Shown piece after piece: positions 5,968-17,118 of a stretch of 41,093 nucleotides of DNA (position 1 is its first letter; each line of letters starts with the position of its first letter). This stretch comes from a virus. The stretch lies in the IMG/VR virus record IMGVR_UViG_3300039308_000010, positions 1 through 41,093 of that record, one strand, 5' to 3'. The notes under the pieces are model-generated. The model was not told the origin of the DNA. It was given only the letters and a program-made list of their open reading frames with translations, and did no database searches. The position numbers were made by a program, and so were the translations under genes.

Positions 5968-6477
5968 TTAAAAACTTAGCACCAATTGGGGCTCCCTCTT
6001 CGGTACAAAGTTTAGTCTATCAGCAAACCGTTGACGCTCCCGGTAATACCAGCGCTTCAGATTATCAAAAGGAAGATCATCTTCAGTAAAGCCGTTTATT
6101 TCCTGAAAGTGGCGAATATTATAATCAACTTCTTTAAATGGTGCATTTGGATGGCTAACGTAATGAAACATCTGTTCTCGAATCAAATCATCAATAGCAT
6201 CATTGAAACGCTCTAAGTTTCCGGGAGTAATATAGGCCCCGCGAGTTTTGAGAATGTTTGCGCCTACATAGACAGGATAAGGAAAGTAGATTTTGTTATC
6301 TATGAGTTTTTGGGAAGGGCGGACTTTCGATGGGTCCAGCTTATCATGCTTTGTCAATAAGCCCAGAAGCATTGTGGGAGCAGGCCCCCTGCTACTGATC
6401 GCCATAATTTGTCCATAATGTTTTTGAAGGTACTTAAGTACGTGCGGTAATACAGGAATTAAGAATTTAGCATCCAT
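5968..6477 (-). CDS. Hypothetical protein downstream of the half-site cluster (169 aa)
   Basis: I use the ATG at 6477 (MDAKFLIPVLPHV); the longer frame to 6516 would start at a TTG. Mostly helical, with a basic, aromatic C-terminal part (FDNLKRWYYRERQRFADRLNF) that could bind nucleic acid. No catalytic motif and no family recognised. It is the first gene downstream of late promoter P6 and of the TGTAAT cluster, so a regulatory or DNA-binding role is reasonable but unproven. A structural role is the alternative, since the head genes follow. Confidence 0.65.
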   Translation of the reverse strand: MDAKFLIPVLPHVLKYLQKHYGQIMAISSRGPAPTMLLGLLTKHDKLDPSKVRPSQKLIDNKIYFPYPVYVGANILKTRGAYITPGNLERFNDAIDDLIREQMFHYVSHPNAPFKEVDYNIRHFQEINGFTEDDLPFDNLKRWYYRERQRFADRLNFVPKREPQLVLSF

Positions 6478-6493
6478 CTGTTTTTGCGTTAAT

Positions 6494-6513
6494 CGGATGC
6501 AGTACGAGGGTGA
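6494..6513 (-). repeat. Dispersed motif, copy B
   Basis: Minus strand: TCACCCTCGTACTGCATCCG, matching copy A at 1036-1055 in most positions. It lies 16 nt upstream of the ATG at 6477. Confidence 0.45.
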
Positions 6514-6628
6514 CAAGAAACGGGGTTTGGTTGCCCTAATATACTCAATTTTTCGGCTTTAGTTGCGCGAATTTTCGCTCCTTCATTTTTTCTATAATTA
6601 TAGCTAGTGCAAAAACTCGGAAATTTTC

Positions 6629-6849
6629 TGTAATTCTGTAATGGTGTAATAACACTTTGATTATTAGTTCTTTAGGTCATTACAGCGTTTTGTAATTGAG
6701 TTTAGAATTTTTGTAAGAAATCTGTAATCCCTTTTCTTATTACAAACTTTTTGTAATTCCTTACAAAAAATTACAAAAAGAAAAATAATCTGTAATCGCT
6801 GTCCTTCAAGGGGTTATTATATAGAATTTGCAAAAATTACAGAATTACA
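6629..6849. repeat. Cluster of TGTAAT/ATTACA half-sites (iteron-like)
   Basis: About 14 copies in 221 bp. TGTAAT or a close form starts at 6629, 6637, 6645, 6691, 6712 (TGTAAG), 6723, 6752 and 6791. The inverse starts at 6679, 6739, 6760 (CTTACA), 6770, 6836 and 6844. The first three are tandem at exactly 8 bp. The same TGTAA half-site forms an inverted repeat over the early promoter. Likely a multi-site protein-binding region; origin or operator. Confidence 0.6.
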
Positions 6850-6933
6850 AAATATTTCCCTAAACTAATTCAGAGGGTAAAGGGAGAAAGCCGAAGCCCT
6901 GCGAATGGATACGGAAAAAATGATTCAGAGTTC

Positions 6934-6970
6934 CAAAAATATGACGGGTGCAGTGCTGGTAAAAGGACAG
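6934..6970 (-). promoter_or_regulatory. Late promoter P6, best -7 match of the family
   Basis: Minus strand: CTGTCCTTTT (6961-6970), 19 nt, TATTTTTG (6934-6941), a perfect TAnnTTTG. No reading frame starts close by; the first gene downstream begins at 6477, giving a leader of about 450 nt that passes through the half-site cluster. Confidence 0.7.
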
Positions 6971-7092
6971 GAAAAAAGGCTCTGCAAACCTCTCTAGAAT
7001 TGCGTATTTGGAAACGGGCTTACCATTGGTGCAGAATATTGAAAAATAGAGGGCTTATAAAACCTGTTAGATTTATTACTTGTATTTATAGC

Positions 7093-7326
7093 ATGGAAGG
7101 ATTTTCTTTTAAATGTGCTATTGCAGACACGCCCTGCGAAGTATTTGTTCAACCTGTAGAATTAGGCTTAAAAGGGCAGAGTTATCGCATACTTCAGAAT
7201 GGGAAGTTTTGTTCTTATATCCATCAATCGCCAGAAGGATTATATAGGGCTGTAGATGATAGTACTTTAACTCAGGATGATGTAGACGCTCTGGGAGAGT
7301 ATATTGATGCGAAAGGGAGCACATAA
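7093..7326 (+). CDS. Hypothetical small protein (77 aa), plus strand
   Basis: Start at the ATG at 7093 (MEGFSFKCAIAD). The open frame extends upstream to a TTG at 7000, but the preceding part reads like non-coding DNA. Small acidic beta-rich protein with two Cys residues in the first 20; the C-terminus (TLTQDDVDALGEYIDAKG) is helical. The minus-strand frame over the same bases has more Cys and His and looks like a shadow. Convergent with the gene at 7350-7583 across a shared terminator. Confidence 0.55.
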   Translation: MEGFSFKCAIADTPCEVFVQPVELGLKGQSYRILQNGKFCSYIHQSPEGLYRAVDDSTLTQDDVDALGEYIDAKGST

Positions 7327-7776: not shown

Positions 7777-8012
7777 TCTGGTAGGTTTTTGAGTAGCCTG
7801 AAGCACATTGCTGCTGTTTGAATGCATTCCTCTATAAGATTTTCGATATTCCCTTCACCCTCTCGAATCAGATTTCCTTCGCGTACCAGTTCGCCACATT
7901 CTTCACTTATAATAGAAGTTTGATGAACGATATCGACAGGCCAATCAGGATGTTTTATTTCTGCTCTTTCGTATTCTGCTATGATTCGCTTTAGTATTTC
8001 CTGAGTTTCCAT
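7773..8012 (-). CDS. MazG-like nucleotide pyrophosphohydrolase
   Basis: All-helical protein of 79 residues. The central SEECGELVREGN carries the EExxE metal-binding motif of the all-alpha NTP pyrophosphatase superfamily, and a second acidic helix follows (ENLIEECIQTA). Such phage proteins hydrolyse (d)NTPs to monophosphates, or possibly ppGpp-type nucleotides. It is coupled by TAATG to the methyltransferase gene upstream and by ATGA to the next small gene. The superfamily is a good match; the substrate is unknown. Confidence 0.75.
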   Translation of the reverse strand: METQEILKRIIAEYERAEIKHPDWPVDIVHQTSIISEECGELVREGNLIREGEGNIENLIEECIQTAAMCFRLLKNLPE

Positions 8013-8797
8013 TATATCCTATTATATAGTTCTATTGCTTTAAAAATTTGAAGTGCAACCTGCGGAACTACTGCGTTTCCTCCGGCTTTGATGGATTCTC
8101 GCCTCCATTGCGAAACGGTTGTTCCGACCACCTGGTAGGGAAACCCATCATCCACCAGTAAAACTGGGGGGTTATTTGCCCAAGAACCGCCCCGAAAAGT
8201 CTGTACAGTTGTTCCGTTAATGCTCCAGGGCTTCTGTGATGCCTCTTCCTGTACATTGGAAAAGAAAGTTTGTCCCTTTTGTAATCCGATGCTGTTGGAG
8301 TAAGCAACCAAATACAACCGGGCTCTGTGGTGGGGGGCACCGACCTCTGAAGCTCTACAAACTCGCCATTCTGCATTATACCCCATTCGGGATAATTCAC
8401 TGAGTATTCGACTAAAGTCTTTCCCCCCGTTTGTTTTAAGAATGTTTGATACATTTTCGGCAACAATAAACGTGGGCCCGATTTCGGAAATAGCTCTGCA
8501 CATTTCGTAGAATAAACCTGTTCGTTCACCTCGTAGCCCCTGTTGACCTTGACCATCTTGTTTTGCGATACTTGCGTCTTGACAGGGGAACCCGCCAGTG
8601 AGAATATCAATTGCTCCTCTGTGAATAGAGAAATCTGTTTTAGTGATGTCTGCATATGATTGAGCCTTTGGCCAGTAGTATTTTAAAATTTTCTGCCCGA
8701 ATGGATTCCACTCGCAGTGGAACTTATTTTCCCATCCCATCCATTCCGCAGCGAGGTCAAAGCCTCCTATTCCTGAGAATAATGAACCGTGTGTCAT
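8012..8797 (-). CDS. C5 cytosine-specific DNA methyltransferase
   Basis: Protein of 261 residues with the conserved motifs in order: I, FSGIGGFDLA (residues about 7-16, SAM binding); IV, GGFPCQDAS with the nucleophile Cys72; VI, AENVSNIL with Glu114; VIII, HHRARLYLVA (156-165); and X, GNAVVPQVA (240-248). The target recognition domain between VIII and X is short, about 70 residues. It transfers a methyl group from SAM to cytosine. No restriction enzyme gene is adjacent, so it is an orphan, presumably protecting phage DNA or acting in regulation. The target sequence cannot be read from the protein. It starts 3 nt after the primase-helicase gene. Confidence 0.95.
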   Translation of the reverse strand: MTHGSLFSGIGGFDLAAEWMGWENKFHCEWNPFGQKILKYYWPKAQSYADITKTDFSIHRGAIDILTGGFPCQDASIAKQDGQGQQGLRGERTGLFYEMCRAISEIGPTFIVAENVSNILKTNGGKDFSRILSELSRMGYNAEWRVCRASEVGAPHHRARLYLVAYSNSIGLQKGQTFFSNVQEEASQKPWSINGTTVQTFRGGSWANNPPVLLVDDGFPYQVVGTTVSQWRRESIKAGGNAVVPQVALQIFKAIELYNRI

Positions 8798-8800
8798 CGC

Positions 8801-11797
8801 TTAAAAGGGTAATTTTTTATCTGATTGGTTCGTAATTACATTTTCACCGATTCCTTCGGTTGGTGTGGGGGAAAGGGGAGAAGGCTCTGCTGTTGGGTCG
8901 TTTACTGCATCAGTAAGCGGTTTACCAGGTGTTTGGATGTAAACTACTTCAGTCGTTTTGGTAGAACCTGTTTTTGCCCACGTTTTGCTTCTGATATCGA
9001 ACTCATAAGCTGGCAAGGTTTTAACCATACGGCCGTCAGCATTTCTAAGGTCTTTAGGGTTCAGGGTTAAGCCTCTGAACGCAGCCCACAGTTTTAAGCG
9101 CTTGCTGAATGCTTGGGCAGTCCATCCGGTAGTTTTGGTTTCCTTTATAAAGTCATCATTTGCAACCTGCTTGATAACATAAGAATCACGTTTGCCACCT
9201 TCTTCGCTGAAATAGATATCAGCCCACCCAAGAAAGTTAACCCCGATTTGATTCATGTAATTACGTGCCATTACGTTACCCATCGGAGGAGCAATCTTGC
9301 TGAAGTTCATGTACCAGCGACAGCACTGAGCCATGAAATTGCAGAAGTCGTTCCATTCCTTCTCGTTAAAGTCTAAGAAGAGGTTCTTGCCTAAATCATC
9401 TTTTGGTGACCGGCTTTCGTTGTATTCGCCGTTGGTGCTGAAGTGGTAGTAATCGCTGAATACGGTGTAAAGCAAACGTCTTTCGGTACTCGGGTCTATC
9501 TCGTTAGGGGTGAAGTTCGATGTGATACAAAGCTTTGGAACCTGCTCGAAAGGAATTTCAAACTGCTTATTGTTTTTCGGGTTCACTACCATCTCGCCGG
9601 TAAGCATCGAAAAGAAGAAATCAAACTTTAGTCCTTTGTTGGCATCATCAATTAAAACGTAATCAGTGTGAACACTGACACGTTCGAAAACGTGAGGGTT
9701 ATCAGTAAGCTTCGGGTTACGACCTTCGAGAGTTACGCTGGTCATGAACTCGCGAACAGATTTATAAGCAATTGATTTACCAGAACCACCATGCGAAAGA
9801 CCGTCATCAGTCAGCTTATGATCCATCGCAAATACGCACCAGGGGCGGGAAGGGTCTTTGTATCGGTGAAGCAAGTAGCCTATGCTGTAGATTTTGTTTA
9901 TTAGATGCAGCTTCTGCTCTTTAATTTCTTCTGCTGTAAGGTTAGGGCCATCGATAGAAAACTTGTGCTTCGCCTGGTATTCTTCCTGAACCTGCATCGG
10001 CTCTCCCGCCAAACTATCTTCCAGCTCTTTCTTCCAGTGGATACGACTTGCATTAATCAGGTAGCGAAAGAATAGGCAATCAGTGTTTTTAATATCAATA
10101 TCGTATTCATCAAGCTCTTCGTTGTGGTTAATGGTGAAGAAATCATCAAGCTTTTTAACCTTGTGCTTAATTACCTCTTTATCCCAAACCAGCTTATCTA
10201 CATCGCCAGATTTAAAAGCCTCAATACCATCCTTAGTTACCTTCCAGGTATTGTTCTCGAAGAAGAAATACTGAGTGTGCTTATCAAAATCGGTAAAGTC
10301 GATATCAATCATTTTAAGAGCGCTTAGGCTGGCTTCGCCTAATTGATTGGTGCGGTAGAAAGCGTTTCTCAGGTTTTCATCCATCTTACGCTTCTCAAGG
10401 AAATCGTAAATGAAGTTTTTAATCAAAGCATCATCAACAGCTCTTACTATGTTGCCATCAATATGAATGAAGATGTAGCCATTCTTATCGTTCTCACTTT
10501 TGAAGCGGAAGAAGCCGTTCTTCATCAGGAAGTTATACATCCTTAAGTTATTCGGCTTGTATTCAATCTTGCTGTTTTTGGTGTAGGTAACATCCCAAAA
10601 GCGATAAGGAAGGGCAGTGGCAACGAGTGATTTGAAATCTTTACGGGAATAGAAGCGCAAATAATCGCGAACGTCTTTGCAGGCATTGCCTCTGAAATCT
10701 CTCTTTTGCTTTAGCTCTTCCGGTAAAGCAATGGTTTTGATATCCAAGAAAACAGGGTCGCTATCATCCATGCAAAGGCGGTGATTTTGCTTCTGGCCGG
10801 TTAGGTCAAGGTCAGGAGCAGTCATTACATCCTTAGCAATGGCGAAGAACTTCTTAACTGTAGCTGCAGTAAGCTTGTAGTATTCGGATGACGGCCAAAC
10901 CACTTCGTAACCTAAAGCAGCAATATTTAAAGCATCACTACCACCTGTACAGTAGATAAGCTCAGGAAGCTTTTCAACCTTTGCCTCTACCGCGTTGCCT
11001 TCTTCATCAAACTGTTCGCCTTGATTTTGCAGGGCATTGAAAGCAACTTGTGCCTGGTCGTATCCGTGAAGAAAATTCTTGTCAACCTCGCCATAGTACA
11101 TAAACCGCTTGCCTTTATCTTGCGATTTTGGCTGGTAAATCTTTTTAAATCCTTTCTCCTCAATGAGGAAAATAGGGTAAAACTCGGTTGAAGCTATTTT
11201 GATCGCTTTACGGTTCTTTATAATGGTATAGCTTTTTAAAGCGAAGTAATGGAGCTTGCTGCAAGTTTTACGAAGCTGGTCATAAGTAGCTTTCTTCCTT
11301 TCTTCCGGATCTGCGATGTTGCGTTTGTCGTAATCGATACCTTTAATAATAAGCTCACTGAATAGAGCCTCTATATAGTTGTTTGGTATTTCGTCGTATG
11401 GTTCAAATAACCATTCCTTTTCCTTTTGGTCTGGCTCTGCATCATCTGTAGTAATAACCGGCTGAAACAGGCTTTTAATTTCTTCATCGCTGGCTACTGC
11501 ATAGCGCTCTGCTAGTAGACGAATTGCACTTCCAAAGTCCAAACCCTCCTCAAGCATGCAAACAGCTATTGCATTGCGAGGCTTGGCATCATCACCAAAA
11601 TCTGTTACAACCCAGTTTCCATCAGGTAGTTGTTTCAAGGTAGCTGAGGCGGTGCGTTCACTATCACGCATCTTAAATTTTTCACCCTTACGGTCCACGC
11701 ACTTTTGAGATTGCGGATAGTAGTAAAGGATGATGTCTAAGCCGTTATTTGTGGCCTGTAATATATCTTCTTTGCGGATGCGGTAATTCGATGACAT
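8801..11797 (-). CDS. Large DNA primase-helicase, SF3-type ATPase
   Basis: Protein of 998 residues. The N-terminal 110 residues resemble the DUF3874/CHC2-like start of phage primases but lack the zinc cysteines (KCVDRKGEKFKMR...DSERTASATLKQLPDG). Around 278-345 is a TOPRIM-like part (LIYCTGGSDALNIAALGYEVVWPSS, later CMDDSDP). The C-terminal half is a helicase: Walker A GGSGKS (about 670-675), Walker B YVLIDDAN (about 713-720), and motif C KLCITSNFTPN (about 755-765) followed by the ERR arginine finger. Motif C of this form is typical of superfamily 3. It should synthesise primers and unwind DNA at the phage origin. Confidence 0.85.
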   Translation of the reverse strand: MSSNYRIRKEDILQATNNGLDIILYYYPQSQKCVDRKGEKFKMRDSERTASATLKQLPDGNWVVTDFGDDAKPRNAIAVCMLEEGLDFGSAIRLLAERYAVASDEEIKSLFQPVITTDDAEPDQKEKEWLFEPYDEIPNNYIEALFSELIIKGIDYDKRNIADPEERKKATYDQLRKTCSKLHYFALKSYTIIKNRKAIKIASTEFYPIFLIEEKGFKKIYQPKSQDKGKRFMYYGEVDKNFLHGYDQAQVAFNALQNQGEQFDEEGNAVEAKVEKLPELIYCTGGSDALNIAALGYEVVWPSSEYYKLTAATVKKFFAIAKDVMTAPDLDLTGQKQNHRLCMDDSDPVFLDIKTIALPEELKQKRDFRGNACKDVRDYLRFYSRKDFKSLVATALPYRFWDVTYTKNSKIEYKPNNLRMYNFLMKNGFFRFKSENDKNGYIFIHIDGNIVRAVDDALIKNFIYDFLEKRKMDENLRNAFYRTNQLGEASLSALKMIDIDFTDFDKHTQYFFFENNTWKVTKDGIEAFKSGDVDKLVWDKEVIKHKVKKLDDFFTINHNEELDEYDIDIKNTDCLFFRYLINASRIHWKKELEDSLAGEPMQVQEEYQAKHKFSIDGPNLTAEEIKEQKLHLINKIYSIGYLLHRYKDPSRPWCVFAMDHKLTDDGLSHGGSGKSIAYKSVREFMTSVTLEGRNPKLTDNPHVFERVSVHTDYVLIDDANKGLKFDFFFSMLTGEMVVNPKNNKQFEIPFEQVPKLCITSNFTPNEIDPSTERRLLYTVFSDYYHFSTNGEYNESRSPKDDLGKNLFLDFNEKEWNDFCNFMAQCCRWYMNFSKIAPPMGNVMARNYMNQIGVNFLGWADIYFSEEGGKRDSYVIKQVANDDFIKETKTTGWTAQAFSKRLKLWAAFRGLTLNPKDLRNADGRMVKTLPAYEFDIRSKTWAKTGSTKTTEVVYIQTPGKPLTDAVNDPTAEPSPLSPTPTEGIGENVITNQSDKKLPF

Positions 11798-15478: not shown

Positions 15479-15510
15479 CAAATGTAAGGGAAAGTTACAG
15501 TAAAAAGCAA
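15479..15510 (-). promoter_or_regulatory. Early leftward promoter
   Basis: Minus strand: TTG (15508-15510), 21 nt, TACATTTG (15479-15486), a perfect Bacteroidota -7 element. It should drive the early operon starting with the Cro-like gene. The inverted repeat TGTAA-N7-TTACA (15483-15499) covers the -7 element. Confidence 0.7.
15483..15499. promoter_or_regulatory. Operator-like inverted repeat over the early promoter
   Basis: TGTAA (15483-15487), 7 nt, TTACA (15495-15499). It overlaps the early -7 element. A second, shorter-spaced version, TTAC-N5-GTAA, lies at 15519-15531. These are likely binding sites of the CI-like or Cro-like protein. Confidence 0.5.
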
Positions 15511-16245: not shown

Positions 16246-17118
16246 ATGAAAGTATTTTTAAGTTGGTCAGGAACCAGAAGTCTTTATATAGCAGAGACTT
16301 TAAAGGTTTGGTTGGAAGAAGTGCTACAAGCAACTGAACCTTGGATTTCTAAGGACATCGATAAAGGGAAAAGATGGAGTGCTGAAATTGCTAAGAGCTT
16401 GAAAGAGTCAAAAATTGGTATCATTTGTCTTACTGAAGATAATTTGAAATCAGAATGGATCAATTTCGAAGCAGGCGCAATATCCAATACTGAAGGAGCT
16501 TACGTTTGTACCTTCCTTTATGGTTTGTCTGCTACGGAAGTTAAGCCTCCTCTTTCTGAATTTCAGGCTACAAAATTTGAAAAGGATGATGTCTTAAAAT
16601 TGTTAATGACTATAAACGGAATCATAGGTGAGGTGTCTGGAAAGTCAATATCAGAAACAAATCTTTGTAGCGTGTTTGAAAAGAATTGGAGTTATCTCGT
16701 CGAGGGTCTGTCGAAAACTCCACCGTTGACCGCTCCCAAAAATTTAAAACGCACATCTGAAGATATACTTGAAGAAGTTCTTCAAAATACTCGAAGTATA
16801 TTGAATTGGCAGGACATGTTTCGAGAGCGACGAATTGAAAAAAGTCATCCACGTGAACTTATAAGTCCAAAGACATATGAGTTGATTAAAGTTTTAGCCC
16901 TCGACTACATCAGCTCTCATCAAATATCATCTCCGGAGCTAATAAGCCGCATGGCTGACGTAATAAGATTTGTCAAATATAAATTGAAGTTTCAGGGAGA
17001 GGAAGTTTCCAGTGATATACTAGAAGCAATACTAGTCCAAATGCTGAAGCAGGCTAGAACTGAAAAGACTGGAATTACTTTTCCTGCAACTATTGAAGAT
17101 GTTATTCGAGACCGCTAA
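16246..17118 (+). CDS. TIR-domain protein, candidate prophage anti-phage effector
   Basis: Protein of 290 residues. Residues 1-150 are a bacterial TIR (TIR_2-like) domain: the first strand MKVFLSWSG, a helix with LYIAETLKVWLEEVL, the loop SKDIDKGKRW, then KIGIICLTEDNL and WINFEAGAIS with Glu75 in the place of the catalytic glutamate. Such domains in bacteria cleave NAD+ or make cyclic ADP-ribose signals in defence systems. The C-terminal 130 residues are helical and unrecognised; they may sense the trigger or oligomerise. It lies in the repressor operon ahead of the integrase gene, so it should be made in the lysogen. No Thoeris ThsA-type partner is nearby. The domain is clear; the defence role is inference. 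Confidence 0.85.
   Translation: MKVFLSWSGTRSLYIAETLKVWLEEVLQATEPWISKDIDKGKRWSAEIAKSLKESKIGIICLTEDNLKSEWINFEAGAISNTEGAYVCTFLYGLSATEVKPPLSEFQATKFEKDDVLKLLMTINGIIGEVSGKSISETNLCSVFEKNWSYLVEGLSKTPPLTAPKNLKRTSEDILEEVLQNTRSILNWQDMFRERRIEKSHPRELISPKTYELIKVLALDYISSHQISSPELISRMADVIRFVKYKLKFQGEEVSSDILEAILVQMLKQARTEKTGITFPATIEDVIRDR

Follow-up and report, generated by a model that had tools for sequence, protein, structure and literature searches.

In SaPI and SCCmec elements, the C-terminal domain of a helicase recognizes iterons that are directly 3' of the helicase gene, and for the origins of SaPIbov1, SaPI5, and SCCmec Cch2, binding by two hexamers has been proposed (PMC7581432). In the PLE satellite of Vibrio cholerae, repeats in a large non-coding region were shown to be the origin, and there is a dedicated initiator, RepA_N (PMC7145576). 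pRN1-type plasmids have an essential non-coding region 3' of the gene for the primase-helicase ORF904 (PMC4234260). Replication origins of Bacteroidota phages appear to be largely undescribed, and our full-text searches of a collection of papers did not find a description of one. In the published description of the Polaribacter phage Leef_1, the main text is silent on replication origins and iterons (PMC8776804).

Here we analyze a virus record of 41,093 bases ("the window"), which is from a temperate Bacteroidota phage. Its relatives are prophages of Pedobacter, Mucilaginibacter, and Sphingobacterium, and its genes include a tyrosine integrase, an HTH repressor, a LuxR-type regulator, a primase-helicase, and a ClpP-type head protease. 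We propose that a 221-bp cluster of short repeats in the window is the replication origin, that the repeated word TGTAAT is the iteron, and that the phage's own primase-helicase of 998 amino acids is the initiator. Based on computational comparisons, we put the probability of this proposal at roughly 0.87.

By analogy, the cluster most likely works like a SaPI origin. Both have an array of short iterons 3' of the gene for a D5/AAA+ helicase, as do the SCCmec Cch2 origins, and the window's helicase has SaPI5 Rep as one of its best structural matches. Unlike the SaPI and SCCmec origins, the window's candidate belongs to a whole temperate Bacteroidota phage, and 2 kb separate it from the helicase gene. 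It also differs in having 14 sites in both orientations, outer pairs at 8 bp, and an IHF-type site, and in that its word is not constant among relatives. PLE is likewise a phage-related element with a dedicated initiator and repeats in a large non-coding region, but RepA_N is not a helicase, and PLE's iterons are longer, semi-palindromic direct repeats. pRN1 is similar in having a non-coding region 3' of a primase-helicase gene, but it has a stem-loop, and its authors found no iterons (PMC4234260). Leef_1 (Helgolandviridae) has a homologous primase/helicase and an array of TGTAATC between its early and head genes; it differs from the window's phage in its host genus, Polaribacter.

The TGTAAT cluster

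The cluster contains 12 exact copies of TGTAAT (or ATTACA, on the other strand) and two of TGTAAG, for a total of 14 TGTAA half-sites in both orientations (Table 1). A first-pass annotation of this DNA, made by a model from the sequence alone, had described about 14 copies, three of them in tandem at 8 bp, and our counts agree. It had also suggested comparing the count to a Markov model. In 200 simulated 41-kb genomes for each Markov order (1, 2, and 3), no 221-bp stretch contained more than 4 sites, and the maximum was also 4 in 20,000 shuffles of the 221 bp itself, so base composition is not sufficient to explain the cluster. Elsewhere in the genome there are 26 sites, close to the number that the models give for the genome as a whole.

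The cluster region is 74% A+T and lies in the largest non-coding gap of the genome. This gap spans 615 bp (6478-7092) when the homology-supported ATG is taken as the start of the downstream gene and the first ATG (7093) as that of the + strand ORF; no other gap exceeds 250 bp. An inverted repeat of 24 nt (92%) bounds the TGTAAT block and was absent from the first-pass annotation. We did not find any matches to the cluster region in Rfam (with or without curated thresholds) or in a nucleotide search of 50,697 phage records.

Table 1. Features of the proposed origin and of nearby genes in the window
Feature	Position	Strand	Basis or use
ORF182, conserved first gene of the head operon; start at ATG 6477 is supported by homologs	5968..6477	-	Used as the anchor for finding relatives
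Iteron array, proposed replication origin	6629..6849	.	Site count, simulations, covariation
Left outer block, three TGTAAT at 8-bp spacing (6629, 6637, 6645)	6629..6650	+	Sequence; spacing seen again in relatives
Right outer block, two TGTAAT at 8-bp spacing (6836, 6844), inverted relative to the left block	6836..6849	-	Sequence
Terminal inverted repeat, left arm, 24 nt, 92%	6619..6642	+	Repeat search
Terminal inverted repeat, right arm, 24 nt	6836..6859	-	Repeat search
IHF-type consensus site TAACACTTTGATT (other strand WATCAANNNNTTR), proposed HU/IHF-family bend site	6650..6662	-	Enrichment in origins
Primase/helicase of 998 aa, DUF5906-like, D5/SaPI5-Rep-type; proposed iteron-binding initiator	8801..11797	-	Family distribution, model, fold match
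C-terminal winged-helix-like domain (aa ~853-957); proposed iteron reader	8927..9241	-	AlphaFold model pLDDT 82; Salinibacter swap

We also note some features of the surrounding genes. A lone + strand ORF (7000-7326, with the ATG at 7093) adjoins the proposed origin and lies between two minus-strand operons; it had no family matches. A C-5 cytosine DNA methylase (8012-8797, - strand; E = 2.6e-45) is almost wholly overlapped by a 195-aa ORF in another frame of the same strand (8068-8655). Next to the HTH repressor and the integrase is a gene for a 290-aa protein with an N-terminal TIR domain (16246-17118, + strand; TIR_2, E = 1.2e-9), which is a candidate for a defence or lysogenic-conversion gene.

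Clusters with other words in related phages

IMG/VR and Sphingobacteriaceae prophages both contain relatives of ORF182 with 35-50% identity. Some 30 related phages and prophages have one cluster each, as dense as the window's but with differing words: TTAACC, TTAACT, TTAACA, TGTAAC, TGGACA, TGGATA, TAGACA, GGGACA, or GGAACG. In 30 of the 31 related loci that we scored, the 6-mer cluster ranked above every shuffled control and above everything else in its own locus. None of the first ten relatives had TGTAA at a window-like density beside ORF182. Two loci were left out of the statistics: in L129, the automatic choice of motif (CAGAAG) was wrong, and in L114, the top clusters were a coding repeat and the next choice was weak.

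These loci encode four types of replication protein. Type A is the window's DUF5906-like helicase of 998 amino acids; type B has about 950 amino acids, with a BT4734-like_N domain and usually PriCT_2; type C has 462 amino acids and DUF3987; and type D has 774-778 amino acids and DUF5906. In 29 of 30 loci, the array is on the 3' side of the helicase gene; the distance is 5-24 bp in L159 and L156 and 1,952 bp in the window. In one locus with a type-A helicase (L188), a word cluster was not detectable within 19 kb. A class-wide genome search yielded L187, which has 12 copies of TGTAAT and a helicase that is sister to the window's (support of 1.0), and L189, whose array word is TGTAACT, as well as L188.

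Five of the type-A loci (L187, L189, L123, L162, and L163) share a frame of 220-245 bp with the window, regardless of the word: two or three sites 8 bp apart on the left, and inverted partners 8 bp apart on the right. The 8-bp outer spacing is found in these five and again in L107 and L045. Most of the compact type-B origins have a plain array, with sites in one orientation (+++) and then in the other (---) on either side of an AT-rich stretch of about 100 bp.

Some loci have more than one array. L126 and L131 each have two separate TTGGACA arrays, one on each side of ORF182, which raises the possibility of two origins, or of a split origin, in some type-B phages. L156 has two clusters (6883-7015 and 11953): the array that immediately follows the helicase gene on its 3' side uses GGGACA, and the one on the 5' side uses TAGACA. 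The C-terminus of the L156 helicase (FGGKQNR) is the same as that of L118, whose array is TAGACA. L156, L118, and L119 are from one Pedobacter metagenome bin, and this pattern could reflect hybrid or tandem prophages or a misassembly.

The word follows the replication protein

Each type of replication protein has its own class of words, with TGTAAC present in both types A and D. Given ORF182, the distance between motifs was correlated with replication-protein type (partial Mantel r = 0.68, p = 2e-4). Given the type, the partial Mantel correlation of motif distance was 0.03 with ORF182 (p = 0.34) and -0.04 with ClpP. For example, ORF182 is 78% identical between L121 and L123, yet both the helicases and the words differ. 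The window-type helicase was present in 11 of 11 phages of its class and in 0 of 19 others, and it was the only ORF family near the locus with such a distribution. The ClpP protease, the capsid, ORF182, and the LuxR-type regulator are common across word classes (all four classes, for the LuxR-type regulator), and among the ORF families near the locus, no regulator family tracked the word class. We also considered ORF182 as the protein that binds the cluster, but this was ruled out, as the words do not follow the phylogeny of ORF182.

Within type A, no domain of the helicase tracks the word better than another (partial Mantel for the wHTH given the N-terminus, r = 0.13, p = 0.16). Within type B, the change from TGGACA to TGGATA coincides with a change from FGGxY to FGGxQ in the C-terminal domain, in a single clade.

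Arrays in more distant phages and in plasmids

Similar arrays are found beyond this phage family. The helicase of Leef_1 is 38.5% identical to the window's, and its array has ten TGTAAT sites, mostly TGTAATC. The helicase of Bacteroides phage BT-TP2 is 37% identical, and this phage has 11 copies of GTAAC. In the Salinibacter ruber plasmids pSR14 and pSR31, the arrays begin 9-12 bp past the stop codon of the helicase gene. The helicases of these plasmids are 94% identical, with the differences concentrated in amino acids 1-40 and the last ~30 amino acids. The layout of the origin is kept between the two plasmids, and every iteron is changed, from GGTCCA to TGTCACA. This swap suggests that the part of the protein beyond the third helix may set the word.

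We also searched the DNA of 2.9 million viral contigs, without regard to the genes nearby, for TGTAAT occurring three times at 8-bp steps, and 94 loci were returned. Among the densest, L107, L045, and L047 (which has nine sites) encode type-A helicases (35-42% identity) and have outer sites at 8 bp. In four other cases (L039:12021, L046:4855, L028:12410, and L049:1927), the gene for a type-B-like helicase ends beside a dense TGTAAT array, which implies that TGTAAT is also used by an unrelated type of helicase.

The helicase as the putative initiator

The window's helicase scored below the family cut-off for Pfam's DUF5906, and a profile of its sequence had no matches among PDB sequences; only fold comparison gave any. 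An earlier model of the full-length protein (998 aa, from 7 sequences) had a pLDDT of 57, which is too weak, and was set aside. In a model of residues 575-998 (pLDDT 82, pTM 0.74), an AAA+ domain is followed by a helix-strand-helix-helix-hairpin arrangement, which we read as a winged helix. The best fold matches in PDB were poxvirus E5/D5, ASFV PrimPol, and the SaPI5 primase-helicase (E = 1e-7 to 1e-5), with modest TM-scores of 0.3-0.44. For the SaPI5 protein, Foldseek reported E of ~2e-6 to 4e-5, TM of 0.30-0.43, and rmsd of 5-7.

The IHF-type site

WATCAANNNNTTR is the IHF consensus of E. coli. We found 23 such sites in 17 of 30 origins, versus 1.4 expected and at 20 times the density in flanking DNA. 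This motif was tested after being spotted by eye, so an unbiased scan for gapped words is cleaner evidence. The scan identified ATCA.....TTA in 19 of 27 origins versus 35 of 288 AT-rich control windows, and this was the only non-iteron pattern among its top 30. An IHF-type site was rare near the TGTAAT clusters of other viruses (2 of 32), so it is not a universal companion of these clusters. Given the enrichment in origins, a bend by an HU/IHF-family protein at this site in the window is probable.

Putting these elements together, the winged-helix-like domain at the C-terminus of the helicase would bind the TGTAAT iterons, and two facing hexamers of the helicase would probably form on the inverted outer blocks. 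With assistance from the HU/IHF-family bend, the helicase would then melt the AT-rich interior (74% A+T), and replication would start.

Alternative explanations

The cluster might instead be a large operator, at which a phage repressor or activator (CI/Cro-like or LuxR-type) recognizes the TGTAAT half-sites and regulates the head operon, of which ORF182 is the first gene. The window's cluster is about 110-150 bp upstream of ORF182, and the first-pass annotation had noted that TGTAA is also the arm of an inverted repeat over the early promoter, so that the cluster could be a secondary site of the early repressor. We did find that repeat (TGTAAGGGAAAGTTACA, at 15483-15499), but its arms are TGTAAG and TGTAAC rather than TGTAAT, and a shuffled genome is expected to contain about 0.75 such repeats, so it is at the level of chance. 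As described above, the word tracks the helicase and not ORF182 or any regulator. Furthermore, in phages with the DUF3987 (type C) protein, the array is 5-662 bp from the helicase gene and 3-6 kb from ORF182 and the late operon, so a role as the promoter or operator for ORF182 is not the shared function. We consider an operator to be improbable, and a secondary site of the early repressor is not supported. Nor did we find support for the suggestion that the cluster is in the leader of a transcript from a promoter named P6: matches to sigma-70-like promoters, the only type modelled, are at the level of chance, and there were no matches in Rfam.

In iteron plasmids, arrays of iterons can also act in copy control. 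The helicase might bind the cluster as a copy-control or incompatibility locus, which would regulate initiation while synthesis starts elsewhere, and the distance of 2 kb from the helicase gene fits with this. We think this is quite unlikely: the array is the only one of its kind that we found in the window, such an array is the top cluster in nearly every locus, and in some relatives it is directly 3' of the helicase gene, as in the SaPI and SCCmec origins (PMC7581432). The cluster also resembles the layout of an attP in being about 240 bp long, in the symmetry of its outer sites, and in having IHF-type sites; the attP of phage lambda has arm-type sites for the integrase as well as IHF sites. 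However, integration would split an attP, and the cluster is whole, between the helicase and the head genes, within prophages on chromosome-scale contigs (L155, L157, L158, and others). Also, the window's integrase family is present in just 3 of the 11 same-class loci that were examined, and the same kind of array is found on plasmids that encode the helicase. We rejected attP as very improbable. Lastly, an AT-rich region might accumulate such sites by accident, but this is refuted by the simulations and the shuffles, and we consider its probability to be negligible.

In contrast to these alternatives, an iteron-type origin, which the first-pass annotation had offered as one of two possibilities, is strongly supported by the comparisons: the covariation of word and helicase, the location 3' of the helicase gene, the related plasmids, and the SaPI5-like fold. 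Several observations count against this proposal: GC skew, which had been suggested as a check, did not have a turning point at the cluster (and was uninformative); L188 lacks a detectable cluster; the window's candidate origin is not directly beside the helicase gene but 2 kb away; no helicase domain stands out within type A as tracking the word; the TM-scores of the fold matches are modest; and the IHF-type site is rare near TGTAAT clusters outside this set of phages.

Implications for initiator-origin recognition

What is new here is the Bacteroidota phage context, an apparent exchange of whole cassettes of initiator and word beneath a single set of head genes, and the conservation of a frame in which the word is rewritten. 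These phages may all use one origin frame (of about 220-290 bp with an HU/IHF bend site, and in the window's type, inverted outer pairs 8 bp apart) whose word is rewritten wholesale as a few residues change in the C-terminal wing of the helicase, with at least four kinds of initiator-word cassette being exchanged under the same head genes. We view this broader scenario as an even bet. If it is true, then there is a large and decipherable code for the recognition of iterons by initiators that is evolving in nature. Many words are paired with many helicases, including a natural pair of helicases that are 94% identical and have different words, so this code is directly testable. The rule of a dense word cluster 3' of a primase-helicase gene gave a candidate origin in about 30 phages and in several plasmids, and it opens a way to build vectors that replicate in Pedobacter, Sphingobacterium, and Salinibacter.
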